Below, piece by piece: positions 2,602 to 16,329 of a stretch of 64,000 nt of DNA; the first letter of the stretch is position 1; each line of letters starts with the position of its first letter. The position numbers were made by a program, and so were the translations under genes. Below the pieces are notes generated by a model, which was not told the origin of the DNA, did not search any database, and saw nothing but the letters and a program-made list of their open reading frames with translations. The stretch comes from Deltaproteobacteria bacterium (GTDB lineage: Bacteria > Myxococcota > JADLHZ01): NCBI GenBank assembly GCA_020848545.1, contig JADLHZ010000104.1, positions 1 to 64,000 on the forward strand, read 5' to 3'.

Positions 2602-3006
2602 ATGTCGAAGCGACAAAAATTGAAGACGCAAGCGCGTCGTGAAGCGAAGAAGGCGGCGCCGCCGCGGGCCGAGCTGCGCCTGCTGCGCATGCCGGCGAGC
2701 AAAGTGCGCCTGGTCGTCGACCTCGTGCGCGGCAAGCCGGTCGAGGAAGCGTTGAACATCCTGACGTTCACCGCCAAAGGCGCGTCGCGTCCTTTGGCGA
2801 AGCTGCTCCGTTCGGCGGTGGCGAACGCCGACGCCAAGGGCGGCTACGACATCGACGAGCTGATCCTCGCCGACGCGCAGGTCGGTGAAGCGCCGCAGAT
2901 GAAGCGCTTCCGTCCGCGCGCGATGGGCCGGGCCAACCGGATCTTGAAGCGCACCTGCCACGTCACCTTCGTTTTGGACAAGCGCAGCGCCGCCAAGAAA
3001 GCGTAA
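2602..3006 (+). CDS. rplV: 50S ribosomal protein L22
   Basis: Large-subunit protein L22 (134 residues), whose hairpin lines the exit tunnel. The family signature is clear: LRMPASKVRLVVDLVRGK near residue 30, a NADAKGGYDIDEL-like middle, and the C-terminal MKRFRPRAMGRANRI hairpin region. It has a basic N-terminal extension of about 20 residues. This is the last gene of the 5' part of the S10 operon: its stop (TAA 3004-3006) is only 3 bases from the stop of a convergent minus-strand gene, and rpsC, normally next, lies 13.3 kb downstream. Confidence 0.96.
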   Translation: MSKRQKLKTQARREAKKAAPPRAELRLLRMPASKVRLVVDLVRGKPVEEALNILTFTAKGASRPLAKLLRSAVANADAKGGYDIDELILADAQVGEAPQMKRFRPRAMGRANRILKRTCHVTFVLDKRSAAKKA

Positions 3007-3009
3007 TCG

Positions 3010-3555
3010 TCACTTCCTCTTCGGCAGCATCGCGGGCGGGTTGATCAACGCGCCGTCGATCGCCGGTCCTTCCGTACAGCTCGACGCAAAGTCGTAGAGC
3101 ACTCTGCACGCGACCTGCTTGCCGTCGGCGCCCGCGTCGTGCAGGCACAGCTGCACCGAATTCTTCTTCTCGCTACAGCGATACTGCAAGGTGAGCTTCA
3201 GCGTGGCGCCGGGCTCGAGCTTCGTGTCGAGCTGCGTCGTGCGCGGCAGCGTCGTGTCATCCCAGCGCTTGCGGCAACTCGAAAGCGTCTTCGTGTGGAT
3301 CGCCTCGATCTGGAGGTGCACATGAAAATCGCCCATCTTCATCGCGGTCACGCGGTAGGGGCCGTCGATCACGATCGGGTGCCGCTGGTTCGGGCCATCG
3401 AAGGTCAAACGCAGCCGCGGCTTCTTGTCGACTTCGATCGCGTCGAGGCACAGCTCCTGCCCACTCGGCCTCAGCGTATAGTGCCCCGCCGGCAGCCGCC
3501 ACCCCGGATCATCCGTCGCCGCCATGAACGCTCCGAGTAGAAGGATCGACAGCAC
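3010..3555 (-). CDS. Hypothetical exported protein
   Basis: A 181-residue protein of unknown function. It begins MLSILLLGAFMAA, a short signal peptide, and the mature part is a beta-rich small domain with six or so cysteines (for example LCLDAIEV, SSCRKRW, QYRCSEK, QLCLHD, QVACRVL, ASSCTEG), which suggests disulfides and a periplasmic or secreted location. It is convergent with rplV at 3-base spacing, with no recognisable terminator between them. It is probably co-transcribed with the two minus-strand genes upstream (3611-5218). No family is recognised. Confidence 0.7.
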   Translation of the reverse strand: MLSILLLGAFMAATDDPGWRLPAGHYTLRPSGQELCLDAIEVDKKPRLRLTFDGPNQRHPIVIDGPYRVTAMKMGDFHVHLQIEAIHTKTLSSCRKRWDDTTLPRTTQLDTKLEPGATLKLTLQYRCSEKKNSVQLCLHDAGADGKQVACRVLYDFASSCTEGPAIDGALINPPAMLPKRK

Positions 3556-3610
3556 GACAATGGTTTGCCAGATCCCACGAAAAGGGACCGGGGAAGTTTT
3601 CGGTCGCGGC

Positions 3611-4213
3611 TCAGCGCTGGACCACGAAGGCGCCGTCCTTCACGCGGACGACGAGACGCAGCGTCGCGGCCTTCTTCACGGACGGCGCGTCTTCGTAGAT
3701 CTTCCACGTCGCGGTCGAAGGCTGCGCCGGCAGCTTGCAGAGCAGGTGCAGACCGCCGCGCAGGCTCCGAACGGACGATTGCGGCAAGTCGGGGTCGCGC
3801 GGGCAGGGATCGTCGTAGAAGAACGCGAACGCACCCGTCTCGTCGTACGCGAGGCTCGGCCCGCTGCGCGCCTTGAAGAGATACAGCGTGTCGACGACCA
3901 GCGGCGGGTCCATGGTGTCGGTGGCGATGAGCCAAGCGACATGCACGTCGAGGCCGCTGCCGCCGGACATCCACCCGAGGACGAGCACGTAGCCGTCGGG
4001 AAGTGCGAGGGCGCGCGTGAACAACGGCAGGCCGCCGTCACCGACGTCGAGCGTCGTCTTGCGCGTACCGAGCTCGTCCGTGATCGCGAGGACGACGCGC
4101 TTCGCCTTGTGCATCGTGCCGCCGCTGGCGTCGTCGTAGGTGATGCGAAAGCCGAGATCTTTGAGCTCGACGGCCGGCGTGCGCGCGAAGAGGAGCAGCG
4201 TCAAGAGGAGCAT
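3611..4213 (-). CDS. Hypothetical exported protein
   Basis: A 200-residue protein of unknown function starting MLLLTLLLFARTPAVE, a likely signal peptide. The mature part is predicted to be mainly beta strands with no recognisable catalytic motif; two cysteines (DDPCPRD and LLCKLPAQ) could pair. The start lies 3 bases after the stop of the membrane-protein gene upstream (4217-5218), so the two are probably co-expressed. No homologue is recognised. Confidence 0.65.
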   Translation of the reverse strand: MLLLTLLLFARTPAVELKDLGFRITYDDASGGTMHKAKRVVLAITDELGTRKTTLDVGDGGLPLFTRALALPDGYVLVLGWMSGGSGLDVHVAWLIATDTMDPPLVVDTLYLFKARSGPSLAYDETGAFAFFYDDPCPRDPDLPQSSVRSLRGGLHLLCKLPAQPSTATWKIYEDAPSVKKAATLRLVVRVKDGAFVVQR

Positions 4214-4216
4214 CGA

Positions 4217-5218
4217 TCACCCCTTCAGCGGCGACGTCGGCGCCCGTTCGAGCCAGTACTGCGCCGACCAAAACAGCCACGCGTTGAGGAAGATGGCGAA
4301 CGCAGAGGCGCCGTACTCCGTGTACGCGCCGAAGAAGTTCGGGATCACGTGCGGCAAGATGAGCCATTCGACGACGCCGAAAGCGGCGCCGACCGCTGCG
4401 GCGCGATCGAGCGGCACCTTCGATCCGCGCAGCGTGAAGTACCCGACGCTGATGATTGCCCACGCCGTCGCGGCCTGCACGAACGAGATGAGCTGATACA
4501 GGCCGATGTAGCGCATCGCGAAGTTGCAAAACGCGACGAAGGCACCGGCGCCCAAGCCGAAGCGTGCCATCGCGCCCATGCGATCGCGATGGAAGGGCCA
4601 GGCGCCGAACATCGCTGTCGCGGTCCACGTGCCCAGGCTCGCGAGCACGAACCAGAACATGCCGCCGTAGTAGGGGATGATGCGGTAGATGATGAAGCAG
4701 ACGAGGGCGATCAGCGCGGCGGTCTGCGCCGCTTTCACCAGTGTGTTCTTGAGATCGAAGGGCGGCGCTGCGGCCGTGGCGGTCGCGCGCGGTGGCGTCA
4801 CGGGATACGACGGCGGCGCCGGCCGCTCTTCCGGCGGAGGCTGTGGTCGCGACGGCGCGATGGGCGTGGCGGGCGCCTCCGACATCGGCGGTGCCGCTGC
4901 CACGCTCGCGTTCCCGCCGAAACGCCGCACGATCTCGGCTGCGTCGTCGGCGCGCAGCTTCTGTAAGCGCACGCTGCCGCCCGCGGTGCGCAAGTGCACT
5001 TCCTTGCCGAGGAAGCCCTCGCGCACCTCCGCGCCATCGGCGCCGGCGTAGGGGTAGTCGCCTTTGACGACGAGGCTGCCCAAGCGATCCTCGACGACGA
5101 CCGCACGATCCGGCGTGAGCACGATCGACTGCTTGAACACGTCCTCCGACGCGATCACACGATCGATCGGCAAGTCTCGCCCGAAGTGGGCACGCAAGGC
5201 AGCGGCGAGGTCGCTCAT
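4217..5218 (-). CDS. Hypothetical membrane protein with N-terminal cytosolic domain
   Basis: 333 residues when started at the ATG at 5218 (MSDLAAALRAHFGRD); the open frame continues upstream but would run through the divergent cyclic-nucleotide-binding gene. Residues 1-105 form a soluble alpha/beta part. A Pro/Ala-rich linker follows (about 110-155), then five to six hydrophobic segments from about 165 to 325, such as AALIALVCFIIYRIIPY and FVLASLGTWTATAMFG. The protein is probably in the inner membrane. No family is recognised. It is transcribed divergently from the gene at 5297, with 78 bases between them. Confidence 0.7.
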   Translation of the reverse strand: MSDLAAALRAHFGRDLPIDRVIASEDVFKQSIVLTPDRAVVVEDRLGSLVVKGDYPYAGADGAEVREGFLGKEVHLRTAGGSVRLQKLRADDAAEIVRRFGGNASVAAAPPMSEAPATPIAPSRPQPPPEERPAPPSYPVTPPRATATAAAPPFDLKNTLVKAAQTAALIALVCFIIYRIIPYYGGMFWFVLASLGTWTATAMFGAWPFHRDRMGAMARFGLGAGAFVAFCNFAMRYIGLYQLISFVQAATAWAIISVGYFTLRGSKVPLDRAAAVGAAFGVVEWLILPHVIPNFFGAYTEYGASAFAIFLNAWLFWSAQYWLERAPTSPLKG

Positions 5219-5296
5219 CGCCCTCAATGTCTCATGACGGAACAGGTGCCGCGCGGAAATTTTGCTGTAAAGTGACCTTGAACGTTGGGGGCGCCA

Positions 5297-5959
5297 ATGG
5301 CCGCGTTGAGCTTCAGCAAAGTTTTCCCGGGACTCTCGTCGAGCGACGTAGATATCTTGCGCAAGGCCTGCCAGCCGATCGAGCTCGCCGCCGGCCAGCG
5401 CTTGTTCAACGAGGGCGATCTCGGCGATTCGATGCTGATCATCGAGAGCGGCGCCATTGAAGTCTACAAGCAGATCCACGGTGACCAAGAGCGCGTGCTC
5501 GCGTCCTTTCATACCGGCGACATCTTCGGCGAGATGAGCTTCGTCGACGGCAGAAGGCGCAGCGCCGGCGCGCGGGCCACCGAGGCCAGCGTGCTCGCGG
5601 CGCTCGGGCGGCCGAAGTTCGAGCAGATCTCGCGCGAGCACCCGAAGCTCGCGGCGATCTGTTTTGCGAACCTGGCCAGCCTGCTCGCCGATCGCCTGCG
5701 TTCCGCCAACGAGATCTATCGAGACGCCGTCGCCGCGTACCTCGACGCCACCGGAGCGAAGAAGCTCGGGCTCGCGTCGCTCGTCGAGGGCATGAAGCCA
5801 GTGCTCTTGTTGACGAGCCGCGGCGAAACGCTCTCGGGCCGCGTGCTCGACGTCGTCGAAGGCGTCGGCGGCAGCGGCTGGGTGATCCACTTTCGTGACG
5901 ATAAGAATCGCTTGTCGTGGGTCCCATATCACGCCGTCGCGCGGATCGAAGTCCTGTAG
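5297..5959 (+). CDS. Cyclic-nucleotide-binding domain protein without DNA-binding domain
   Basis: A 220-residue protein; the ATG at 5297 follows a GGGGG stretch, and an in-frame TTG at 5285 is less likely. Residues 15-125 are a CRP-type cyclic-nucleotide-binding domain with a phosphate-binding cassette at about 74-94 (GDIFGEMSFVDG then RRRSAGARA), including the expected Glu and Arg-Ser-Ala. After the dimer-like helix the last 60 residues are beta-rich, ending SWVPYHAVARIEVL, with no helix-turn-helix. It therefore looks like a ligand sensor acting on a protein partner, not a transcription factor. It stands 57 bases before the antiporter-like/DabA genes on the same strand, so it may regulate that complex; that link is inference. 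Confidence 0.85.
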   Translation: MAALSFSKVFPGLSSSDVDILRKACQPIELAAGQRLFNEGDLGDSMLIIESGAIEVYKQIHGDQERVLASFHTGDIFGEMSFVDGRRRSAGARATEASVLAALGRPKFEQISREHPKLAAICFANLASLLADRLRSANEIYRDAVAAYLDATGAKKLGLASLVEGMKPVLLLTSRGETLSGRVLDVVEGVGGSGWVIHFRDDKNRLSWVPYHAVARIEVL

Positions 5960-6016
5960 GGGCTTGATTAACCAACGAGAAAATCACTAGGTACCCACCT
6001 ATCGATCGGAGGTCCG

Positions 6017-7519
6017 GTGCAGGTCTTGGTCCGTGCTTGGCTTGCGTCGGTGCCCGCGCTGAGCATCCTTTTGTGGATGCCGGTCGTCGCGATGTTGATC
6101 ATCGCCGTCGTGCCCGCTTCGCGCGGCCGTTTGCTTCGCACCCTCGCGCTGACGGGGACCGCGTCGACGCTCGCGTGGTCGATCTTCATCACGGTCGGCT
6201 TCGACGCGTCACTGGCGACCTTGCAGCTCGTTGAGCGGAGGCCGTGGGCGCCGGAGATGGGCATGAGCTACGCGCTCGGCGTCGACGGCTTGGCGCTCCC
6301 GCTCGTGTTGCTGACGACGCTCATGGGCTTCGTCGCGATGCTCGTGGCGGTGCGCCAGCGCGATCAAGCGAAGATCTTCTTCGCGTGGCTGCTCGTGCTC
6401 GAGTTCGCCGTGCTCGGCGTTTTCCTCTCGCAGGACTGGTTCCTCTTCTACGTATTCTGGGAGATCACCCTGATCCCCATGTTCTTCCTCATCGGCATGT
6501 GGGGCGGCGAGAAGCGCGTGCTCGCGTCAGTCACGTTCTTTCTCTACACCTTCGCGGGCTCCATCGTGATGCTCGTCTCGATGCTCGCGGTGCACGTGTA
6601 CCTGCCGAGCCACAGCTTCGACATGGTGGCCGACCTCGCCGCCCGCGACACCTGGGACGCGGCGTTTCAAACGAAGATCTTCGCCGGCTTCTTGCTCGGC
6701 TTTGCCGTGAAGCTACCTATCGTGCCCCTGCACGGCTGGCTGCCGCTCGCGCACGTCGAAGCGCCGACGCCGGCGAGCATGTTCCTCTCGGCGGTCCTCT
6801 TGAAAATGGGCGCGTACGGGATCATGCGCTCGGGTCAGATGCTTCCGCTCGGGCTCGAAGCGTTGGCGCCGGTCCTGTCGATCTTCGCCGTCGTCAACAT
6901 CGGTTACGGCGCGGTGCTCGCTTGGCGCCGCACGGATCTGAAGGCGATGGTCGCGTTCTCGTCGGTGAGTCACATGGGCATCGTCATCCTCGGCATCGCC
7001 GCGTTGAACGAGCGCGGTTTCGTCGGCGCCAGCATGACCATGCTCACGCACGGCCTGACGAGCGGTGCGTTGTTCTTGCTCGTCGGCGCGATCTACGAGC
7101 GCACGCACTCGCGCCAGCTCGAGGATCTCGTCGGCATCGGCGCGCGCGTCCCGGTCTACGCAGCGTTCATGGCCCTCGCGCTGCTCGCGAACATGGGCAT
7201 GCCGGGCTTCGCCGGCTTCATCGCCGAGCTCAACGCCATGCTCGGCGCGCTCGCGCGATTCGGCGCGTGGGCACTTTGTGCGACGATCGGCGTGCTGATC
7301 ACCGCCGCCTATTGCCTGCGCAACATCGGTCGCATGTTCTTCTCGAAGGGCTACAAAGGCGCCGACGTCACCGACTTGTCGAGCAGCGAAACGATTGGCG
7401 CGGCCATCCTTGTCGGACTTTGCCTCGTCATCGGCATCGTGCCGTCACCGCTGCTCGGCGTCATTCGGCCGACGGTGCAGGCGATGCTGCCGGCGATCGA
7501 GCAAGACGGGCTGCGGTAG
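6017..7519 (+). CDS. NuoM-like proton-conducting membrane subunit
   Basis: A 500-residue polytopic protein of the proton-translocating antiporter family (NuoL/M/N, MrpA/D, DabB). The GTG at 6017 is supported by GGAGG at 6009-6013. Residues important in NuoM are kept: Glu149 in FYVFWEITLIPMF (E. coli Glu144), Lys232 in VKLPIVPLHGWLP, Lys263 in LLKMGAYGIM and Glu404 in GFIAELNAM. It should thus be competent for proton movement across the inner membrane. It is the first of five tightly packed genes, with DabA-like next (12 bases). Length and motifs are closest to NuoM, but no other Nuo subunits are nearby, so complex I membership is unlikely. Confidence 0.88.
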   Translation: MQVLVRAWLASVPALSILLWMPVVAMLIIAVVPASRGRLLRTLALTGTASTLAWSIFITVGFDASLATLQLVERRPWAPEMGMSYALGVDGLALPLVLLTTLMGFVAMLVAVRQRDQAKIFFAWLLVLEFAVLGVFLSQDWFLFYVFWEITLIPMFFLIGMWGGEKRVLASVTFFLYTFAGSIVMLVSMLAVHVYLPSHSFDMVADLAARDTWDAAFQTKIFAGFLLGFAVKLPIVPLHGWLPLAHVEAPTPASMFLSAVLLKMGAYGIMRSGQMLPLGLEALAPVLSIFAVVNIGYGAVLAWRRTDLKAMVAFSSVSHMGIVILGIAALNERGFVGASMTMLTHGLTSGALFLLVGAIYERTHSRQLEDLVGIGARVPVYAAFMALALLANMGMPGFAGFIAELNAMLGALARFGAWALCATIGVLITAAYCLRNIGRMFFSKGYKGADVTDLSSSETIGAAILVGLCLVIGIVPSPLLGVIRPTVQAMLPAIEQDGLR

Positions 7520-7531
7520 GAGACGGCAGGC

Positions 7532-10500
7532 GTGCAGTGGAAACGGCAAGTCGAGGGCTTTCCGCTCAACGACGCGCAGCGCCAGCGCCTGCGTGAGATC
7601 GTGGCCCATGCCGGGCACTTGCTTCCGGGCCAAGGCCCGATGCGCACCTTCATCCATCACAACACGCTGCACGGGCTGCAGCATTTGGCCTTCGATCGGG
7701 CGCTCGCCGAGGCGGAAGCGCGGAGTCTCGGCTCCGGTTACCTCTCGCTTTCTGAGTTCCGCGCGCATTACCTGAGGGGCCGCATCGCCGATCGTGACGT
7801 CGACGCCGCGCTCATCGCCGCCGGAGTCACGGATCCCGAGCAGCGGCGCCTGCGCCTGCAAATCATGTTACACGAGCCGCTCGTTCTGCCGCGCCAGACG
7901 TGGGCGTCAGACGCCGCGATCGACACGCCACCCGTTTTCGACGACGGCCCGGCGGTCGCGCTCAGCCCGGCGCAGCACGATGCGCTCGAGGCCGCCCTGA
8001 CCGATCGCGCCGCCTCGGCGGCGGAAGGCGTGCAGCGCGCGCTCGCCCGACGCGCGCTCGCAGATCTCGAGAAGGGATGCCTCGGGCGCGAGGGCTTCAC
8101 GGCGCTCGCGACCTTGGCGTCGCTCGACGCCGGCTCCGTCAGCGCCAAGGTCTACGCCGAGCTCGAGCGTCACGATCCGCGGGAGGCGATGCGACGGTAC
8201 GCGCAACGGCAAGTGGCCGCTACGTTCGCCGGGTTGAGCCGCGGCGAGACACTCGGCGGCCTCGTGCGCGCGCTGACCGGTGAGGACATCGAGGCGGCGA
8301 TCGATGAGCGTATGATCGAGCTGCTGCAGGCGTTTTGCGACGAGGGTCTCGCGGCGTGGGCGATGCCTCATCGCGAGCACGGCTTCTTCTCGGCTTGGCG
8401 TACGCTCAAAGGCGACAAGCTCGCCCTCAGCGTGCGCTTCGACGCCGGCGGCCTGCTCGCCGAGTGGCCGCTCGTCCCCGCCGACGCCGTGATCTACGGG
8501 CTGCGCTTGCTCGGCGTCGACGAAGCGGCGTGGGGCGCGTACTTGACCGCGTTGCTCGTACGCCTGCGAGGCTTCGGCGGCATGATCGCGTGGCGCGCGT
8601 CGCAAAAAGCGTACGCGCGGCAGCAGAAAGAGCCCATCGACCTCGTCGAGCTCTTGGCGGTGCGCTTGTTCTATGAAGTGTCTGCGTTGCAACGCGCGTG
8701 TGCCGAGCACTGGCACGAGGACGCCGAGATCTCCGCGCTGCGCGCGTACTTCAGCCGCCGCAGCCACGAATTGCTCGTGCGGCAAGAGCTGTTCGCCGGC
8801 CGCTTGCCGGAGCCGATCGCCGAGGACGCGCGCACGCTCATCGAAAGCAAAGAAGCGCCGTACCGCACGGCGGCGAAGTGGCTGCGGCTCGCCGATACCT
8901 TATGGGCGGCGTGCGATCCGGCGGTGCGAGCAGAGCTCGCGAGCGGCGAATCGCGCGAGAATGCGCGGCGCACGGCAGCGATCGCGCTGGCGGCAAAGCG
9001 TCCAGAGAGCGAGCTCTCCGGCGAAGTGGCGCAGTTCTCCCGCGACGCGCAGCGCGCGATTTGGCAGCGCGCGTACGAGATCAACTATCGTGATGCCGTG
9101 CTTGCAGCGTTGCAAGGCGAGCCCGGTCCTTGGCACGTGCGCGAACGGCGGCCAGCCGCGCAGGTCGTCTTCTGCATCGACGAGCGCGAGGAGGGCTTTC
9201 GCCGGCACTTGGAGGAGCTCGATCGCGAGATCGAGACGCTCGGCGCGGCAGGGTTCTTCGGGGTCGCGATGTATTTTCGCGGCGCGTTCAGCGAGAGCAC
9301 CGACGCGCTCTGTCCGGTCGTCGTCGAGCCCGTGCACCTCCTGCGGGAGCAAGCCGTCGACGCGCGCGCGTTTGCGCGAGCCGGCTTCGTCAGCGGCTGG
9401 AAGAAGCTGCTCTTCGACATCGTTCGTCACGCCAAGAACGACGCGCTCGTCGGCGCCGTCGTCACCCACGTCGCGGCGTGGCTCGCGCTCGTGCCGCTCG
9501 TCGGCGCGCTCCTGTTCCCGCGCGCGGCGCGTCGGGCCATCTCCCGCCTCGAGGATGCCCTGGCGCCGCCGGTCGTCACGACGATCGCGCTGGACGCCAA
9601 GGAGCCCGTCGAGCACGAGGGCGGTCTGCGCGCCGGCTTCTCGCTCGACGAACAAGCCGATCGCGTCGAAGGCACCTTGCGCAACGTCGGTCTCTTTGGG
9701 GGCCCCGTCGACGTTCTTGCGCGGCTCGTCGTGCTTTGCGCGCACGGCTCGAGCAGCGTGAACAACCCGCATCTCTCGGCGTACGACTGCGGCGCGTGCG
9801 GCGGAAAGCATGGTGGCCCAAACGCCCGGGCGTTCGCGCGCATGGCGAATCACCCCGGCGTGCGCGAGCGCTTGCGGACGCGTGGCCTCGCCCTCCCGAC
9901 CGACACCTGGTTCGTCAGCGCCGAGCACAACACCTGCAGCGAAGAAATCGTCTACTTCGATGTCGATCGCGTTCCGCCCGGACATGCCGCCGACCTCGCG
10001 CGCTTGCGCACCGCGATGGACGCCGCCCGTGAGCGCTCGGCGCACGAGCGGTGCCGGCGCTTCGTGTCGGCGTCGCTCGCGATCTCGGCCCCGGCCGCGC
10101 TTCGTCACGTCGAGGCCCGCGCGCTCGATCCGAGCCAAGCGCGGCCCGAGCTCGGTCACGCGACGAACGCCTCGTGCCTCGTCGGGCGCCGTTCGCTCGC
10201 CGCTGGACGCTTCTTCGATCGCCGTCTGTTCCTCGTCTCTTACGATCCGCGCACCGACTCGGACGGCCGCATCTTGGAGCGCATCCTGCTGGCGGTGGGT
10301 CCGGTCGGCGCCGGCATCAGCCTCGAGTACTACTTTTCGACGGTCGATCCTCTCCGCTACGGCTGTGACACGAAGCTCGCCCACAACATCTCGGGCCTCG
10401 TCGGCGTCGTCGAAGGCGCCCGCAGCGATCTCCGCACGGGCCTGCCGCGACAAATGACTGAGATCCACGAGCCGATGCGCCTGCTCCTCATCGTCGAAGC

Positions 10501-10753
10501 GAAGCCAGCGGTGCTCGGCGCGATCTACGAGCGGCAGCCGCCGATCAAAGAGCTCGTCGGCAACGGGTGGGTACAGCTCGCCGTCGTCGATCCGGACACG
10601 CGCGCGATCTCGGTGTTCGTCGAGGGCCAGGGCTTCGTCGACTGGAAGGGCACTATAGAGGCGCTGCCGACCGTCGCGCGATCCCGTGATTGGTACGCGA
10701 ACCACCGAGACTTCTTGCCGCCCTGTCGCGTGACCGGAGGCGTCGATGCTTGA
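7532..10753 (+). CDS. dabA: DUF2309 / DabA-like inorganic-carbon uptake subunit
   Basis: A 1073-residue protein of the UPF0753/DUF2309 family. DabA is the cytosolic beta-carbonic-anhydrase-like subunit of DAB complexes, thought to hydrate CO2 one-way using energy from the membrane partner. The four zinc ligands reported for DabA have counterparts here: Cys548 and Asp550 in VVFCIDEREEGF, His738 in LCAHGSSSVNN and Cys753 in YDCGACGGKHGG. The 15-residue His-Cys spacing agrees with the family. The N-terminal FIHHNTLHG motif is also typical. The protein is longer than many DabAs (about 800-900). The start is GTG with a TAGGAGA site overlapping the previous stop. The stop overlaps the next ATG by 8 bases. 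Confidence 0.92.
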   Translation: MQWKRQVEGFPLNDAQRQRLREIVAHAGHLLPGQGPMRTFIHHNTLHGLQHLAFDRALAEAEARSLGSGYLSLSEFRAHYLRGRIADRDVDAALIAAGVTDPEQRRLRLQIMLHEPLVLPRQTWASDAAIDTPPVFDDGPAVALSPAQHDALEAALTDRAASAAEGVQRALARRALADLEKGCLGREGFTALATLASLDAGSVSAKVYAELERHDPREAMRRYAQRQVAATFAGLSRGETLGGLVRALTGEDIEAAIDERMIELLQAFCDEGLAAWAMPHREHGFFSAWRTLKGDKLALSVRFDAGGLLAEWPLVPADAVIYGLRLLGVDEAAWGAYLTALLVRLRGFGGMIAWRASQKAYARQQKEPIDLVELLAVRLFYEVSALQRACAEHWHEDAEISALRAYFSRRSHELLVRQELFAGRLPEPIAEDARTLIESKEAPYRTAAKWLRLADTLWAACDPAVRAELASGESRENARRTAAIALAAKRPESELSGEVAQFSRDAQRAIWQRAYEINYRDAVLAALQGEPGPWHVRERRPAAQVVFCIDEREEGFRRHLEELDREIETLGAAGFFGVAMYFRGAFSESTDALCPVVVEPVHLLREQAVDARAFARAGFVSGWKKLLFDIVRHAKNDALVGAVVTHVAAWLALVPLVGALLFPRAARRAISRLEDALAPPVVTTIALDAKEPVEHEGGLRAGFSLDEQADRVEGTLRNVGLFGGPVDVLARLVVLCAHGSSSVNNPHLSAYDCGACGGKHGGPNARAFARMANHPGVRERLRTRGLALPTDTWFVSAEHNTCSEEIVYFDVDRVPPGHAADLARLRTAMDAARERSAHERCRRFVSASLAISAPAALRHVEARALDPSQARPELGHATNASCLVGRRSLAAGRFFDRRLFLVSYDPRTDSDGRILERILLAVGPVGAGISLEYYFSTVDPLRYGCDTKLAHNISGLVGVVEGARSDLRTGLPRQMTEIHEPMRLLLIVEAKPAVLGAIYERQPPIKELVGNGWVQLAVVDPDTRAISVFVEGQGFVDWKGTIEALPTVARSRDWYANHRDFLPPCRVTGGVDA

Positions 10754-12686
10754 GCTCTTCGTCGCCGCGTCGCCTATCGCCAGCCTCGGCGCCGCGTTGC
10801 TCATCGCGCTCGGCTGCACGCGAAGGACGCCCGAGCGCCGCGTCTACGTCATCGCGCTCGTGCCGCTGCTTTATGCCTCAGCGTTGGCCGTCGCGCTCTT
10901 CGTTTCCGTCGCCGGCGATCCGACGCCGCGCGACCTCCGGCTCGCGCGTTGGATCGATCGCGGCAAGCTGACGATCGATGTCGGCCTGTACCTCGATTGG
11001 CTGTCGGCCGCGCTCTTTCTGCTGGTGAGCCTGGCGGTGACCTTCGCGGCGCGCTTCTCGCGCGACTACTTGCACCGCGAAGCTGGTTACCGCCGTTACT
11101 TCGCCGTGCTCGCGCTCTTTCACGCGGCGATGAGCTGCGCGGTGCTCGCGCGAGACTACCTCTGGCTATTCGTCGGCTGGGAGATCGCTGGGTTCTGCTC
11201 GTACCTCTTGATCGGCTTCTTCCACGATCGCCCGCGCGCCGTCCGGGCCGCGACGAAGGCGATCGTGACGAAGCGCATCGGCGACGTTGCGTTCCTCGCG
11301 GCGATCGCGCTGATGGCGACTGGCAGCGCCAGTGTCGCGTTCTCGGACGTGCATCGTTCCACGCTCCCTCCCGGCCTTGCAGCGGCGATCGGCGCGTGCT
11401 TGTTGGTCGCGGCAGCAGCGAAGAGCGCGCAGCTGCCGTTCAGCGCGTGGGTGGGCAACGCCGTCGAAGGGCCAACGCCGTCGAGCGCGCTGTTCTACGG
11501 CGGCGTCATGGTGAGCGGCGGTGTCTATTTGCTTGCACGCAGCGAGCCGATCTTGCCCGAGAGCGTGCTCGTCGCCACGGCGATCGTCGGAGGCTTGACC
11601 GCGTTCGCGTGCACGCTCGTGCGCATGACCTTGAGCGACGTGAAGTCGCAGCTCGCGTATACAACGGCGGCGCAGCTCGGCCTCATGTTCGTGTGCATCG
11701 CCTTCGCCGCGGTGCCGCTCGCCATCGTTCACCTCGTGGCGAACGCCGTGTGGCAGATGCGCGCGTTTTATTTTGCGCCGTCGGCCCTGCAGACGATCGA
11801 ATCCGAGCCTCCCGGCCGCCAAGAGCCCGAGCCTGGCGGCCTGTGGATTGGCCACGGCGTCATCGTTCTCCTCGCGTCGGTGCCGGTGTTCTCGGCCATC
11901 GTCGTGCGCGGCGGGCATGCACCACCCGGCTACGAGCTCTCAGAGATGCCGCGCCTCGCCTGGATGTTCGCCTGCATCGTGCTTTGCTTCATCCTCGGCC
12001 TCGGCTTTTACCTCGCGAGCTTCATGCGCCGTCGCTTCGACACTCGTCGGCCCGCGCATGTTGCCGTCGCGTGGGGGTTGCTGCTGGCGATGACGGCGCT
12101 CGCGCTCGCGTCGGTGCTCGTACCGGTGAAGGCGTTCGCCGCGTGGGACAACGGCAGCGCACCAGGCATTGCGGACGAACCACTGTGGGCGCTCGCGGTG
12201 CGCTCGGTGCTCATCGTGCTGCTCGTCGCCGATTGGTCGCGGGCGGTGCAGCTGCTTGCACGGCCGGCGAACCCGAGCCGCCTCTACGCTGCCGCGCACC
12301 AGCGCTTCTGGATGGATCAAGTCTACGCGCGCTTGTTCATCGAGCCGCTCTACGTGCTCGCGCGGATCGTGCATCGCATCGACACGCGTCTCGTCGAACG
12401 GCTGCTCGGGTCGGCGCGCAGAGAGACGGCGCCCCGGCCCTCACGCGAGGGATCGGCGGACGAGGACGGGCCGCGCGGAGACGGCTTCGTCGGTCAATCG
12501 TTCACCGCCGCCGCGACGATGGTGAAGACGCTCGAAGGGTGGCTGGAGAGCGCGTTGCGCGACGGCGTTCCGCTCGCGAGCTCGCTGGTTGGCGCGCGCT
12601 TCGCCCGTCTCGATCGCGTGTTCGCCCATCCGCTCGCGCCGCTCTTGCTCATCGCCGCGGTGCTCTTGCTCGTGTGGGTGCTCTGA
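10746..12686 (+). CDS. NuoL-like membrane subunit (DabB-like candidate)
   Basis: A 646-residue multi-pass protein resembling NuoL and DabB, the membrane partner of DabA. Glu146 (WLFVGWEIAGFCSYLLIG) and Lys226 (AKSAQLPFSAWVGNAVEGP) are kept. Several NuoL channel residues are changed: the His of SALIHAATMV is Tyr251 (SALFYGGVMV), and the HxxxHxxxK of the central half-channel reads His329, Asn333, Gln337. An Arg/Pro-rich cytosolic loop at about 550-590 precedes a last helix. It overlaps dabA (8 bases) and the next gene (TGATG), so the complex is probably made in fixed proportion. Of the four antiporter-like proteins here it is the most likely direct DabA partner by adjacency, but this is inference. 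Confidence 0.87.
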   Translation: MLELFVAASPIASLGAALLIALGCTRRTPERRVYVIALVPLLYASALAVALFVSVAGDPTPRDLRLARWIDRGKLTIDVGLYLDWLSAALFLLVSLAVTFAARFSRDYLHREAGYRRYFAVLALFHAAMSCAVLARDYLWLFVGWEIAGFCSYLLIGFFHDRPRAVRAATKAIVTKRIGDVAFLAAIALMATGSASVAFSDVHRSTLPPGLAAAIGACLLVAAAAKSAQLPFSAWVGNAVEGPTPSSALFYGGVMVSGGVYLLARSEPILPESVLVATAIVGGLTAFACTLVRMTLSDVKSQLAYTTAAQLGLMFVCIAFAAVPLAIVHLVANAVWQMRAFYFAPSALQTIESEPPGRQEPEPGGLWIGHGVIVLLASVPVFSAIVVRGGHAPPGYELSEMPRLAWMFACIVLCFILGLGFYLASFMRRRFDTRRPAHVAVAWGLLLAMTALALASVLVPVKAFAAWDNGSAPGIADEPLWALAVRSVLIVLLVADWSRAVQLLARPANPSRLYAAAHQRFWMDQVYARLFIEPLYVLARIVHRIDTRLVERLLGSARRETAPRPSREGSADEDGPRGDGFVGQSFTAAATMVKTLEGWLESALRDGVPLASSLVGARFARLDRVFAHPLAPLLLIAAVLLLVWVL

Positions 12687-14176
12687 TGGAGTGGTTGCTC
12701 TTCGCGCTCGTCGTCGTGCCGATCTTGATCGCTTTGATCGTCGCGCGGGCGCCGAGCGATCACGCCGCAGCGCGCCTGACATTGTTCGCAGCGCTCGCCG
12801 AGCTCGGGTTGTCCGCCATCGCGGCCGCCGAGGTCGTCTACGACGGCGCGCTGACGCACGAAGGTGAGCAGTTCCTCGGCTGGTCGTGGCACTTGGATGG
12901 CCTCGCCTTGATGTTCGTGCCGCTCAGCGCCATCGCCACGCTGCTCGTCGTCGTGCAAAAGGAGCGCGAGAGCCGCAGCTACTACGCGACCGTGCTCGGC
13001 CTCGAGGCGGCGACGATGGCGATGTTCTGCTCGCTCGACCTCGGCGTCATCTGGCTCGCCTTCGTGGCGCAAGGGCTGCTCGGGTATGCGCTGCTGCGGC
13101 TGCCAGGCGAGCAAGGCGCGGACGCCGAGCGCAGGGACGCCGCCCGACACTTCTTGCAGATTGTCGCGATCAGCGCGGCGCTCTTGCTCGGCGCTGTCGC
13201 TTGGCTCGGCGCCCGCACGTCTGCTGATCTCGGAGCGCTGCGGCTTGATCTGCCGAACCTCGTGGCCCTACAGCTCGACGACGAAACACAGCGTATTCTG
13301 TTCGCCGTGATGATCTGCGCGCTCGGCTTGCGCGTGCCGATCTTTCCCTTTCACGGCTGGTTGCCCAAGGTGCTCGCGCACAGCCCGACCGTGGTCACCG
13401 CGGTGTTCCTGCTCGGCATCAAGTCGTGCGCCTTCGTCATGCTGCGCTTCGTCTGGCCAATCTGCGCCGGCGCGGCCGAGGCGCACTGGACCTTCCTCGC
13501 CTGGCTCGGGGCGATCGGCACGATTTACGCGGGCCTCGTCGCGCTCGTGCAGGAAGACGTGCGGCTCTGGCTCGGCTACTCGGCGGTGTCGCAGATGGGC
13601 ATCATCTTGCTGGCCATGAGCGCGCACAACGACGACGCGATCGGCGGGGCGCTCTTGCAGCTCGGCAGCCACGGCCTCTCGACCGCCGGCCTCGCGTTCT
13701 TGAGCGCATCGATCTCGACCCGCACGAAGACGATGCTCCTGACGCGCATGCCGGCGCTCGCCCGCGCGATGCCGAAGCTCTCGGTGATGTTCCTGCTCAT
13801 CGCGCTCGGCAGCCTGAGCATGCCCGGCACCAGCGGCTTCAACGGTGAGCACCTGATCTTGCTCGGCGCGCTCGAGCGGCACTGGATGGTCGCGGCGGCG
13901 GCGGGCCTCGGATCGCTGATGACGGCGGCCTACCTCATCATCTACTATCAGCGCGCGTTCTTTGTCGCCGGAGAGTCGGCGGGTCGCACGTTCAGCGATC
14001 TCGATCGCAAGGAGTGGCTCGTGTGCGGCACGATCGTGACGATCGTCTTCGCGCTCGGCCTGCTCAGCTCGCCGTTGCTGAGCGCGATGCACCACGCGGT
14101 GCGCGGGGCGTTCTCGGGCGTCGCCATGCTCGCGCCATCCCCGGATGTCAGCGTCACGAAGGGGGCGCCACGATGA
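12686..14176 (+). CDS. NuoM/NuoN-like membrane subunit with altered key residues
   Basis: A 496-residue antiporter-family protein; the ATG at 12686 shares TGATG with the previous stop. The helix that carries the essential Glu in NuoM reads VIWLAFVAQGLLGYAL, with Ala128 at the Glu position. The first channel Lys is Arg (LGLRVPIFPFHGWLPK). The second Lys (GIKSCAFVML) and the late Glu (GFNGEHLIL) are kept. This subunit may therefore be structural or have changed proton coupling. Its stop overlaps the next start (ATGA). It is a NuoM/N paralogue by fold; the exact subtype cannot be settled by eye. Confidence 0.85.
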   Translation: MEWLLFALVVVPILIALIVARAPSDHAAARLTLFAALAELGLSAIAAAEVVYDGALTHEGEQFLGWSWHLDGLALMFVPLSAIATLLVVVQKERESRSYYATVLGLEAATMAMFCSLDLGVIWLAFVAQGLLGYALLRLPGEQGADAERRDAARHFLQIVAISAALLLGAVAWLGARTSADLGALRLDLPNLVALQLDDETQRILFAVMICALGLRVPIFPFHGWLPKVLAHSPTVVTAVFLLGIKSCAFVMLRFVWPICAGAAEAHWTFLAWLGAIGTIYAGLVALVQEDVRLWLGYSAVSQMGIILLAMSAHNDDAIGGALLQLGSHGLSTAGLAFLSASISTRTKTMLLTRMPALARAMPKLSVMFLLIALGSLSMPGTSGFNGEHLILLGALERHWMVAAAAGLGSLMTAAYLIIYYQRAFFVAGESAGRTFSDLDRKEWLVCGTIVTIVFALGLLSSPLLSAMHHAVRGAFSGVAMLAPSPDVSVTKGAPR

Positions 14177-15579
14177 ACGTGCCGTTGCTCGGCCTCATCG
14201 TCTTCTTGCCGATGATCTTCGCCGCGGCCGTGTGGCTCATGCCGGACGAACGCTGGCGACGCCTGCTCGGGCGCGCTGCGGTGACGATGAACCTCGGGCT
14301 GACGCTCGTCGCCGTCGCGCGTTTTTCGGTTCACGAGCCCGGCTTGCAGCTCGTCGAGCGTGCAGAGTGGGTCTCTGCGCTCGGCGCGAGCTACGCCCTC
14401 GGCGTCGACGGTGTCAGCCTGCCGTTTTTGGTGTTGACGGCGCTGCTCGCGGGCCTCGTCGTCTGGCAAAAGGGCGCGCTCGGTCCGGCCCGAACAGCGT
14501 TGCCGGCGCTCTTGCTGCTGCAAGGTGCGCTCACTGGCGTGTTCGTCGCCCGCGATCTGCTCCTCTTCTTCGTGTTTTGGGAGCTGACGATCGTGCCCGT
14601 CTTCATCCTCACGAGCACCGCCGGCCTTGGGCCGATGCGCCTGGACGCCGCGCTGAAGTACGCCCTCTACATGTTCGTCGCGTCGGCGTTCTTGATGGCC
14701 GCGGTGCTGCTCGTGGGCGTCGAGGCGAAGACCTTCGATCTGGCCGCGTTGGCCGCGACGCCGCTCGATGGCGACCTCCAGACGGCCTTGTTCTTCCTCT
14801 TGTTGGCCGGCTTCGGCGTCAAGGCTGGCCTGGTGCCCTTGCACACGTGGCTGCCGCGCTTGCTCGCGGACGCGCCGGTCGGCGCCGCAGTCATGACGGT
14901 CGGGCTCAAGATCGGCGCCTACGGCATCATGTGTGTGCTCCTGCCGCTGACGCCGGACGCGACGCGTCGCTTTGGCTGGATCGGCTGCGCGCTCGGGGTG
15001 GGGACGGCGCTCTACGGCGGGCTCGGAACGTTCTACCAGGCGAACCTGCGGCGCTTCGTCGGCTACGCGAGCGTCAGCCACGCCGGCCTCGTCGTGCTCG
15101 GCATCTTCATCCAGTCGAACGAAGGCACCGGCGGCGCGTTGATGATGCTCGTCTCGGCGGGCCTCACCTCATCGGCGCTCGTGTTCATCGCGGCGTTCAT
15201 GCGCGCCCGTGGCGGTAGCGCCGATCGGACGGCGTTCTCGGGCATGGCGTCTGTGTGGCCTCGGCTGACTGTGTGCTTCGTGCTCGCGCTCGTCGCCAGC
15301 ATCGGGCTCCCCGGCACGAGCGGCTTCATCGGCGAGCAGCTCATCTTGGTTGCAGCGTTGGCCGAGAACGCCTTCTTGGCATTGGCCGCGCTCGGCTCGT
15401 CGCTCGTCGCCGGTGTCTACGCGTATTCTCTGCTCGAGAAGACCTGCTTCGGCCCCGCGCGCGCCGAGCACCGAGCGTTTGCCGATCTCGATGGGCGGGA
15501 GCTGGCGACGCTGGCGATCTTGTGCGCGCTGACTGTGCTCATCGGCTTTTCGCCGCGGGTGTTGCTCTCTCTCGTCTAG
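14173..15579 (+). CDS. NuoM-like proton-conducting membrane subunit
   Basis: A 468-residue antiporter-family protein. Unlike its upstream neighbour it keeps the canonical set: Glu in FFVFWELTIVPVF, Lys in GVKAGLVPLHTWLPR, Lys in VGLKIGAYGIM, and Glu in GFIGEQLIL. The start overlaps the previous stop (ATGA). The stop (TAG 15577-15579) overlaps by 4 bases the stop of the convergent DUF1648 gene. It is the last gene of the DabA-containing run. With four antiporter-like proteins beside a single DabA, the set resembles a multi-channel arm and not the simple two-gene DabAB pair. Confidence 0.87.
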   Translation: MNVPLLGLIVFLPMIFAAAVWLMPDERWRRLLGRAAVTMNLGLTLVAVARFSVHEPGLQLVERAEWVSALGASYALGVDGVSLPFLVLTALLAGLVVWQKGALGPARTALPALLLLQGALTGVFVARDLLLFFVFWELTIVPVFILTSTAGLGPMRLDAALKYALYMFVASAFLMAAVLLVGVEAKTFDLAALAATPLDGDLQTALFFLLLAGFGVKAGLVPLHTWLPRLLADAPVGAAVMTVGLKIGAYGIMCVLLPLTPDATRRFGWIGCALGVGTALYGGLGTFYQANLRRFVGYASVSHAGLVVLGIFIQSNEGTGGALMMLVSAGLTSSALVFIAAFMRARGGSADRTAFSGMASVWPRLTVCFVLALVASIGLPGTSGFIGEQLILVAALAENAFLALAALGSSLVAGVYAYSLLEKTCFGPARAEHRAFADLDGRELATLAILCALTVLIGFSPRVLLSLV

Positions 15580-16064
15580 ACCGCTGCTGGCTTGCGGAAG
15601 CGACGCGTGAGCGCCACGATCCATGCGACCGTGAAGGCGAGGAACGCGCCGAGCACGATCCCGGGAAACGGCAGGCGCCCGTCGCCGCCTTCGTTGGCCC
15701 GGAACGTCATCTCAAAGACCGTCACGAGCAGCACGCCGACCCCGGCGGCGAAGACGTCCATGTAGACGCCCATCACGGCGAGCGAGGCCTCTTTGCGCTC
15801 CGGCGCGAGCCAGTAGTCCCTGTTCGGCATGTTGATCAGCGACGTCGGCAGGATGCGCATCAGCCGTGGTATCAGCGCGAAGAGTCCGAGCACGAAGCCG
15901 CTGGTGCCGAGGTAGAAGGCGACGAGGCCTTGCTTCGACATCCAATCGTTCGGGTTGCCAGCGAGGTCGTAGTGCGACGCCATCCTGTCGGGCAGCGCCG
16001 GGTAGTGGATGAAGAGCTGAATGCCGATCGCCGCGGCGAGCAACAGATAGATGAGCTTCGTCAT
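15576..16064 (-). CDS. DUF1648 family membrane protein
   Basis: A 162-residue inner-membrane protein. The N-terminal helix is followed by HYPALPDRMASHYDLAGNPNDW, given here as HYPALPDRMASHYDLAG plus NPNDW, the DUF1648 signature also found in SdpI-like immunity proteins. Three further hydrophobic segments follow (about 48-65, 97-117 and 132-152). DUF1648 function is not well defined. It is convergent with the last antiporter-like gene (4-base overlap) and divergent from rpsC, with 265 bases between. Confidence 0.83.
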   Translation of the reverse strand: MTKLIYLLLAAAIGIQLFIHYPALPDRMASHYDLAGNPNDWMSKQGLVAFYLGTSGFVLGLFALIPRLMRILPTSLINMPNRDYWLAPERKEASLAVMGVYMDVFAAGVGVLLVTVFEMTFRANEGGDGRLPFPGIVLGAFLAFTVAWIVALTRRFRKPAAV

Positions 16065-16329
16065 GATCGTTCCCCTCCGCGCGCGATATTGGCACCAGGC
16101 CTCGGCACAAGCGAGATTTCGGTGCGGATCGCACTTCGCCCGCGAAAAATCGTGCCACGCCCCTAGACAACGCCCACATGAACACGTAAGAGCGCCGCCT
16201 CATTTGTCTGATGCGCGTTTGCGGTGGCTGCTCGTCCGGGCCAAACGAAGCGCGAAACGGCGGTAGCGCGCTGCGTTGCCGGTGGTGAAGAAGAAATTGT
16301 CGGAGCGTGACTCCGGCGCTGGAGAGGCT
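16065..16329 (+). promoter_or_regulatory. Intergenic region before rpsC, inferred promoter region
   Basis: These 265 bases lie between the divergent DUF1648 gene and rpsC. Because rpsC is cut off from the 5' half of the S10 operon, the rpsC-to-map genes must have their own promoter, and this is the only space for it unless reads pass through the preceding plus-strand genes. No convincing -35/-10 pair was found by eye; TTGGCA at 16089 lacks a good partner. A GGAGAGG site at 16321-16327 precedes the rpsC ATG. No leader hairpin of obvious L4-binding type was seen. Confidence 0.35.

Follow-up and report, generated by a model that had tools for sequence, protein, structure and literature searches.

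A five-gene operon encoding one DabA and four antiporter-like subunits that looks like an enlarged DAB-type complex

The DNA studied here is a stretch of 64,000 nucleotides from a Deltaproteobacteria bacterium (contig JADLHZ010000104.1, positions 1 to 64,000), hereafter called the window. Five genes fill positions 6017-15579 in the order M-DabA-L-M-M:

6017..7519, + strand: g1, NuoM-like antiporter subunit of 500 aa with a GTG start (PF00361 9e-66, TIGR01972 490 bits)
7532..10753, + strand: g2, DabA (DUF2309/PF10070) of 1073 aa (PF10070 1.3e-233 over the full model)
10746..12686, + strand: g3, NuoL/DabB-like subunit of 646 aa (PF00361, profile positions 1-224 of 294 only)
12686..14176, + strand: g4, NuoM-like subunit of 496 aa (PF00361 4.5e-43)
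14173..15579, + strand: g5, NuoM-like subunit of 468 aa (PF00361 1.1e-46)

The four membrane proteins all match the Pfam family Proton_antipo_M (E=1e-36 to 9e-66), in agreement with an earlier note on this DNA that had described one DabA with four NuoL/NuoM-like proteins. The same note spoke of five overlapping genes. Three junctions do overlap (g2/g3, g3/g4 and g4/g5, by 8, 1 and 4 nt), but g1 and g2 are separated by a 12-nt gap. Because the five genes fill the interval, no further subunit is encoded between them. As the note had also stated, complex I genes (NuoA/H/J/K, electron-transfer, quinone) and Mrp accessory genes are absent from the open reading frames of the operon. The Mrp antiporter set MrpA-G is thus not present: the operon has no MrpB/C/E/F/G, and no space for small subunits.

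The operon interrupts the ribosomal S10 operon, where it is located between rplV and rpsC. These two genes are 13.3 kb apart here (window 3006-16327), compared with 9-116 bp in 17 of 17 relatives. Besides the five genes, the insert encodes a cyclic-nucleotide-binding protein and a DUF1648 protein, together with unassigned genes on the minus strand. The gene for the cyclic-nucleotide-binding protein (PF00027, 5285-5959) is on the same strand as the operon and 57 bp upstream of it; its product could be a regulator, or the gene could be part of the operon transcript.

The DabA of the window matches the DabA2 structure by sequence (PDB 9rd0_A, 1.8e-61). The family match and the AlphaFold2 model (pLDDT 83.5, pTM 0.84) describe a beta-carbonic-anhydrase-like zinc protein with an enlarged helical domain in its N-terminal part. 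A Foldseek search of the model against the PDB returned no significant match; as the DAB2 entry, matched by sequence, is likewise absent from that list, this negative result carries no information. The following elements were located in g2:

9173..9187, + strand: Cys548 (zinc) and Asp550-x-Arg552 (dyad), equivalents of DabA2 Cys351, Asp353 and Arg355
9362..9514, + strand: finger, residues 611-661, a predicted helical hairpin (AlphaFold2 helices 611-635 and 638-661)
9743..9790, + strand: His738 and Cys753 (zinc), equivalents of DabA2 His524 and Cys539
10157..10159, + strand: His876, at the place of DabA2 Leu658 (alignment column)

Both zinc cysteines and the zinc histidine are invariant across an alignment of 54 DabAs. 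Among DabAs from operons of the same five-gene order (see below), C548, H738 and C753 are found in 51/51, D550 and R552 in 50/51. Cys548, Asp550, His738 and Cys753 had been listed beforehand as four zinc ligands, and all four are at these positions. In the DAB2 structure, however, the ligands are Cys, His and Cys, and an Asp-Arg dyad holds the zinc-bound water (PMC13144422), so that Asp550 is the dyad aspartate and not a ligand.

Two other sites distinguish this DabA from the DAB2 subtype. Leu658 of DabA2 replaces the Gln/His of canonical beta-carbonic anhydrases and is reported to be strictly conserved among DabA2 homologues (PMC13144422). DAB2-type proteins have Leu at this place, whereas His is observed in 51/51 five-gene DabAs (His876 in the window), in 34/35 three-gene DabAs and in 7/7 two-gene DabAs. 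The second site is finger residue Glu444, essential in DabA2 (PMC13144422). Asp occupies its place in 12 of the 51 five-gene DabAs; in the window protein the hairpin is predicted, but the acidic residue at its tip, which His-type DabAs are not known to require, is replaced by His646. Since Glu444 is mostly not kept and Leu658 is replaced by His, the mechanism may differ from that of DAB2. The N-terminal domain also varies with operon type. About 500 residues separate the HHN motif from the first zinc cysteine in three- and five-gene DabAs, versus about 300 in the two-gene and DAB2 types, which makes the domain about 200 residues longer in the former.

To place the operon, 84,980 species genomes were scanned with a DabA alignment, and the best 80 of 547 relatives were taken. 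In their neighbourhoods the order M-DabA-L-M-M occurs in 51 loci, window included, from at least five phyla; a gene set peculiar to the window is thereby ruled out. Carriers include Nitrosomonas and relatives, Methylomonas and other Methylococcaceae, Thiodiazotropha, Thiothrix, Thiobacillus, Accumulibacter, Rubrivivax, Rubrobacter, Chloroflexota, Acidobacteriota and a Polyangium. Among 195 genomes surveyed from the window's own phylum, 45 have a DabA, and the long ones inspected belong to three-gene DabA-L-M operons. The five-gene order is thus rare in this phylum and widely conserved elsewhere. In four loci (L100, L105, L107 and L108; hosts are three Competibacteraceae and that of L107), L and the following M form a single fusion protein of 1000-1045 aa. 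When pairwise divergences are compared among the five proteins over 50 loci, the correlations are 0.86-0.94, a figure to which shared ancestry contributes. In at least five loci (L097, L133, L145, L148 and L155), a sixth antiporter-like gene, which forms its own clade, follows g5.

Trees were computed with a quick IQ-TREE search, using SH-aLRT support and no bootstrap. A single clade (33 rows, SH-aLRT 99) unites the DabAs of five-gene loci and indicates a single origin; the window protein is the first to branch off. Members of this clade labelled otherwise are cut by a contig end, broken, or of the fused L-M form. Five-, three- and two-gene DabAs together make a superclade (59 rows, SH-aLRT 100) apart from the DAB2 type. 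In the membrane-subunit tree (148 rows), g1 proteins form a clade (22 rows, SH-aLRT 99) that groups with NuoM yet is separate from it. The g4 proteins also form a clade (SH-aLRT 99), and g5 stands beside g4 and the M of three-gene operons (SH-aLRT 98), the exact place of the window's g5 being weak. Finally, g3 groups with all DabB-type proteins (SH-aLRT 99), outside NuoL.

These trees bear on the relationship with complex I. The host genome has its own nuoE-F-J-K-L-M-N cluster on contig C12 and nuoD on C14. In ten genomes of Methylococcaceae and close kin, four of them Methylomonas isolates, NuoD was found above the cut-off in none. PF00361 has five matches in the Methylomonas methanica genome, namely the four operon subunits and one further DabB. 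As Methylomonas carries the operon with no detectable NuoD or NuoL/M/N, the four subunits work without complex I. The earlier note had set against its own reading a phylogeny with the four proteins inside true Nuo clades and a displaced nuo operon elsewhere; what the trees and genomes gave instead were position-specific clades and complex-I-free carriers.

The channel residues suggest a division of labour among the membrane subunits. In g1, E149 (TM5), K232 (TM7), K263 (TM8) and E404 (TM12) make up the NuoM-type set, which is kept in 22/22 g1 proteins. The set is also complete in g5 (E137, K217, K246 and E388) and kept in 23/23. In g4, the TM5 glutamate is lost (V127 in the window; absent in 23/23) and the TM7 lysine is mostly replaced by Arg (Arg216 in the window). 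The single M of three-gene operons is without the TM5 Glu and the TM8 Lys.

L-type g3 proteins have equivalents of NuoL Glu144, Arg175, Asp178, Lys229, Lys305 and His334 in 24/24 cases (E146, R177, D180, K226, K300 and H329 in the window), and TM12 Lys399/Asp400 in none, window included. The L-type profile tracks NuoL to TM10, then skips about 180 residues, over NuoL TM11-14, to the lateral-helix motif. The intervening helices are mostly gone in Proteobacteria, and some remain in the window's g3. A Foldseek search with the g3 model, which is poor at residues 360-510, returns NuoL. In DAB2, the DabA finger enters DabB where the NuoL TM12 residues are replaced (PMC13144422). Because g3 has lost these same residues, it looks like the DabB subunit that would receive the membrane finger of DabA, with g1, g4 and g5 extending the arm. 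The earlier note had suggested more protons per turnover; two M subunits and L keep channel residues compatible with this, and the middle M does not.

The window copy itself has peculiarities. Its g3 has N333 and Q337 where NuoL and DabB2 have His and Lys, two residues essential in DAB2 (PMC13144422), and its g3 and g4 sit on long branches of the membrane-subunit tree. Judging from these features of the sequence, this copy could be altered or failing.

With a PF10070 DabA, a Cys-His-Cys and Asp-Arg site and an adjacent NuoL-like g3 of the DabB clade, the operon belongs to the DAB/DAC systems. Its gene order and the position of its DabA inside the five-gene clade assign it to the five-gene class. 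The closest characterized system is DAB2 of Halothiobacillus neapolitanus (DabA2-DabB2, PDB 9rd0, PMC13144422), which shares the DabA family, the zinc site and dyad, the membrane finger and a NuoL-like partner without the TM12 charges of NuoL. In contrast, DAB2 has one antiporter-like subunit instead of four, and in the DAB2-type loci examined the DabB-type gene precedes DabA. The N-terminal domain of DabA2 is shorter by about 200 residues, Leu658 stands in place of His, and the finger has Glu444 where five-gene DabAs have His, Asp or other residues; DabB2 is without the TM5 Glu kept by g3. MpsAB of Staphylococcus aureus likewise uses a DUF2309 protein and a NuoL-like membrane protein to supply inorganic carbon, in a heterotroph, but consists of two proteins only and has been argued to be sodium dependent (cited in PMC13144422).

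Operons of this general kind were noted in 2017. The COGNAT paper (PMC5700660) describes DUF2309 genes upstream of a nuoL homologue, often near NuoM and SulP genes, and proposes that how many ions are moved is set by how many membrane subunits there are. The five-gene class appears to fall in its DUF2309/COG3002 'clade C', where DabA likewise precedes a NuoL homologue, and NuoM genes, frequently also SulP, are close by. In the text consulted, however, the description is of gene neighbourhood only, with no fixed order, subunit roles, residue pattern or complex-I-free hosts. DUF2309 operons with extra NuoM genes had thus already been noticed, and, relative to that text, the five-gene order, the residue pattern and the complex-I-free hosts are newly described. 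Our literature search found the class described nowhere beyond this 2017 neighbourhood note, and found no biochemistry for any five-gene complex.

The three-gene DabA-L-M operons of Archangium/Myxococcus and Planctomycetota share the DabA superclade, His at 658 and the enlarged N-terminal domain, but have one M subunit, without g1 and without a g4/g5 pair. Cyanobacterial NDH-1MS (CupA/CupB) also joins a complex-I-type arm, with several antiporter-like subunits, to a CO2-hydrating protein. It differs in that it has NDH-1 core subunits, all absent from the window operon, and takes its drive from ferredoxin oxidation. Complex I (NuoL/M/N) and Mrp have homologous membrane subunits; the operon differs from them by the lack of electron-transfer, quinone and Mrp accessory subunits and by subunits that belong to separate clades.

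The genes around five-gene operons suggest a function in carbon supply. Neighbours of the 51 operons are SulP (23), a CsoSCA-like carbonic anhydrase (14), beta-carbonic anhydrase (6) and SbtA (4). The RuBisCO large subunit is present in 28 of 50 five-gene carriers and missing from the methanotrophs, Chloroflexota, Acidobacteriota and Polyangium members. From neighbours and RuBisCO distribution together, the likely role is inorganic carbon supply, which would serve CO2 fixation in part of the hosts and ordinary carboxylations in the rest, the window host among them. A protein of about 370 aa that adjoins five-gene operons (L153 17886-19007 and 13 other loci) weakly matches the catalytic domain of carboxysome shell carbonic anhydrase (PF20686, 9.8e-7) and is possibly a little-studied carbonic anhydrase.

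No carbon-fixation genes were seen in the window, as reported before, and the RuBisCO large subunit was not found in the 8.0 Mb host genome. The same genome has two beta-carbonic anhydrases and a second DAB operon, DabA-L-M (L012 4367-12950; G000 contig C21), located between the GTP-PEPCK and malic enzyme genes. This setting is a direct genomic hint to anaplerotic carbon supply. An anaplerotic role is plausible in the RuBisCO-less window host, although autotrophy or methanotrophy is common among carriers of this operon class.

With a single origin and a presence in at least five phyla, the five-gene set appears to be an enlarged and hardly studied form of a CO2-capturing machine that is already known. 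The enlarged DAB-type complex put forward in the earlier note is well supported by the conserved order, the single DabA clade, the position-specific subunit clades, the L-M fusions and the complex-I-free carriers. From these patterns we infer one physical complex docked at g3, as well as the direction, ion and stoichiometry proposed here. The operon probably encodes a DAB-kind membrane complex acting as a membrane-potential-driven one-way carbonic anhydrase with an enlarged arm. In the cytoplasm, DabA would use its buried zinc to convert CO2 into bicarbonate. The helical finger of DabA would insert into g3, standing in for DabB, and g1, g4 and g5 would lengthen the membrane arm in the fashion of complex I; in this arm g1 and g5 would act as complete proton channels, and g4, having lost its glutamate, would be a modified linker. 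Entry of protons, or possibly sodium, through g3 and the added channels would drive or gate hydration, so that each CO2 may cost more than one ion. In the RuBisCO-less host, the bicarbonate would most likely feed carboxylations of ordinary metabolism. CO2 hydration driven by the proton motive force (PMF) is the published model for DAB2 (PMC13144422). By our own estimate, one proton per CO2 is thermodynamically enough at normal PMF, and four channels are therefore not obviously needed. The two beta-carbonic anhydrases and the second DAB operon of the host also count against the proposal.

Alternatively, the operon could encode a sodium-coupled bicarbonate importer whose M subunits move Na+ rather than H+. 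We regard this as unlikely. All five-gene members retain an intact DabA zinc site, which suits CO2 hydration better than simple symport, the channel residues match the set in proton-pumping NuoM, and DAB2 needs no sodium (PMC13144422). Support comes from the frequent SulP and SbtA neighbours, which are bicarbonate-type carriers, from antiporter-type subunits that can move Na+ in Mrp, and from the sodium dependence argued for staphylococcal MpsAB, as cited in PMC13144422. It is distinctly unlikely that DabA and g3 alone constitute the DAB, with g1, g4 and g5 as a separate Mrp-like antiporter removing protons from CO2 hydration. Two-gene DabA-L systems do occur in the same DabA superclade, and g1 and g5 have complete antiporter-type residues, but five phyla keep one gene order, with DabA set among the M genes, four loci encode L and M as one protein, MrpB/C/E/F/G are absent from the operon, and DabAs of the classes that have M subunits possess the longer N-terminal domain. 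Reverse coupling, in which an exergonic DabA reaction pumps ions outward through the arm, was proposed in 2017 for DUF2309 operons (PMC5700660) and recalls the antiporter subunit number of complex I, an outward pump. It is very improbable: DabA is carbonic-anhydrase-like and the energy released by CO2 hydration is too small for pumping several ions, uncoupling impairs DAB2 activity (PMC13144422), and the adjoining genes serve carbon supply. Finally, although NuoM and NuoL are the best database names of the subunits, relocated subunits of the respiratory complex I are ruled out by the position of the four proteins outside Nuo clades and beside their operon counterparts, by the host's own nuoJ-K-L-M-N cluster and nuoD, and by Methylomonas, which carries the operon without complex I.

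Beyond the one-way, membrane-potential-driven carbonic anhydrase preferred here, a broader proposal is possible rather than probable. The five-gene operons, found in at least five phyla, might define a distinct single-origin class of vectorial carbonic anhydrase whose four-subunit, complex-I-sized arm powers or gates one DabA. Such a class would have a higher ion-to-CO2 gear, would hydrate CO2 at low membrane potential and would use a His-658 site unlike that of DAB2. If true, this would be a second mechanical design of PMF-driven carbonic anhydrase, common to nitrifiers, sulfur oxidisers, methanotrophs, soil Actinomycetota, Chloroflexota and Acidobacteriota. Systems with one, two, four and five antiporter-like subunits and homologous DabAs offer a natural series for testing channel number against coupling stoichiometry. 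Whether the number of complex-I-type channels sets this stoichiometry is an open question for complex I too, and Methylomonas strains, in which the operon occurs and complex I is not detected, offer a clean background for addressing it.

Two other gene arrangements were observed. In L101, g1 is fused to DabA; because a normal-looking DabA start lies in the linker, and a stop may have been lost there, this fusion was left out as evidence. Thiothrix fructosivorans (L169 9986-20980) carries a tandem pair of long DabA genes, with an L-type subunit gene after each.
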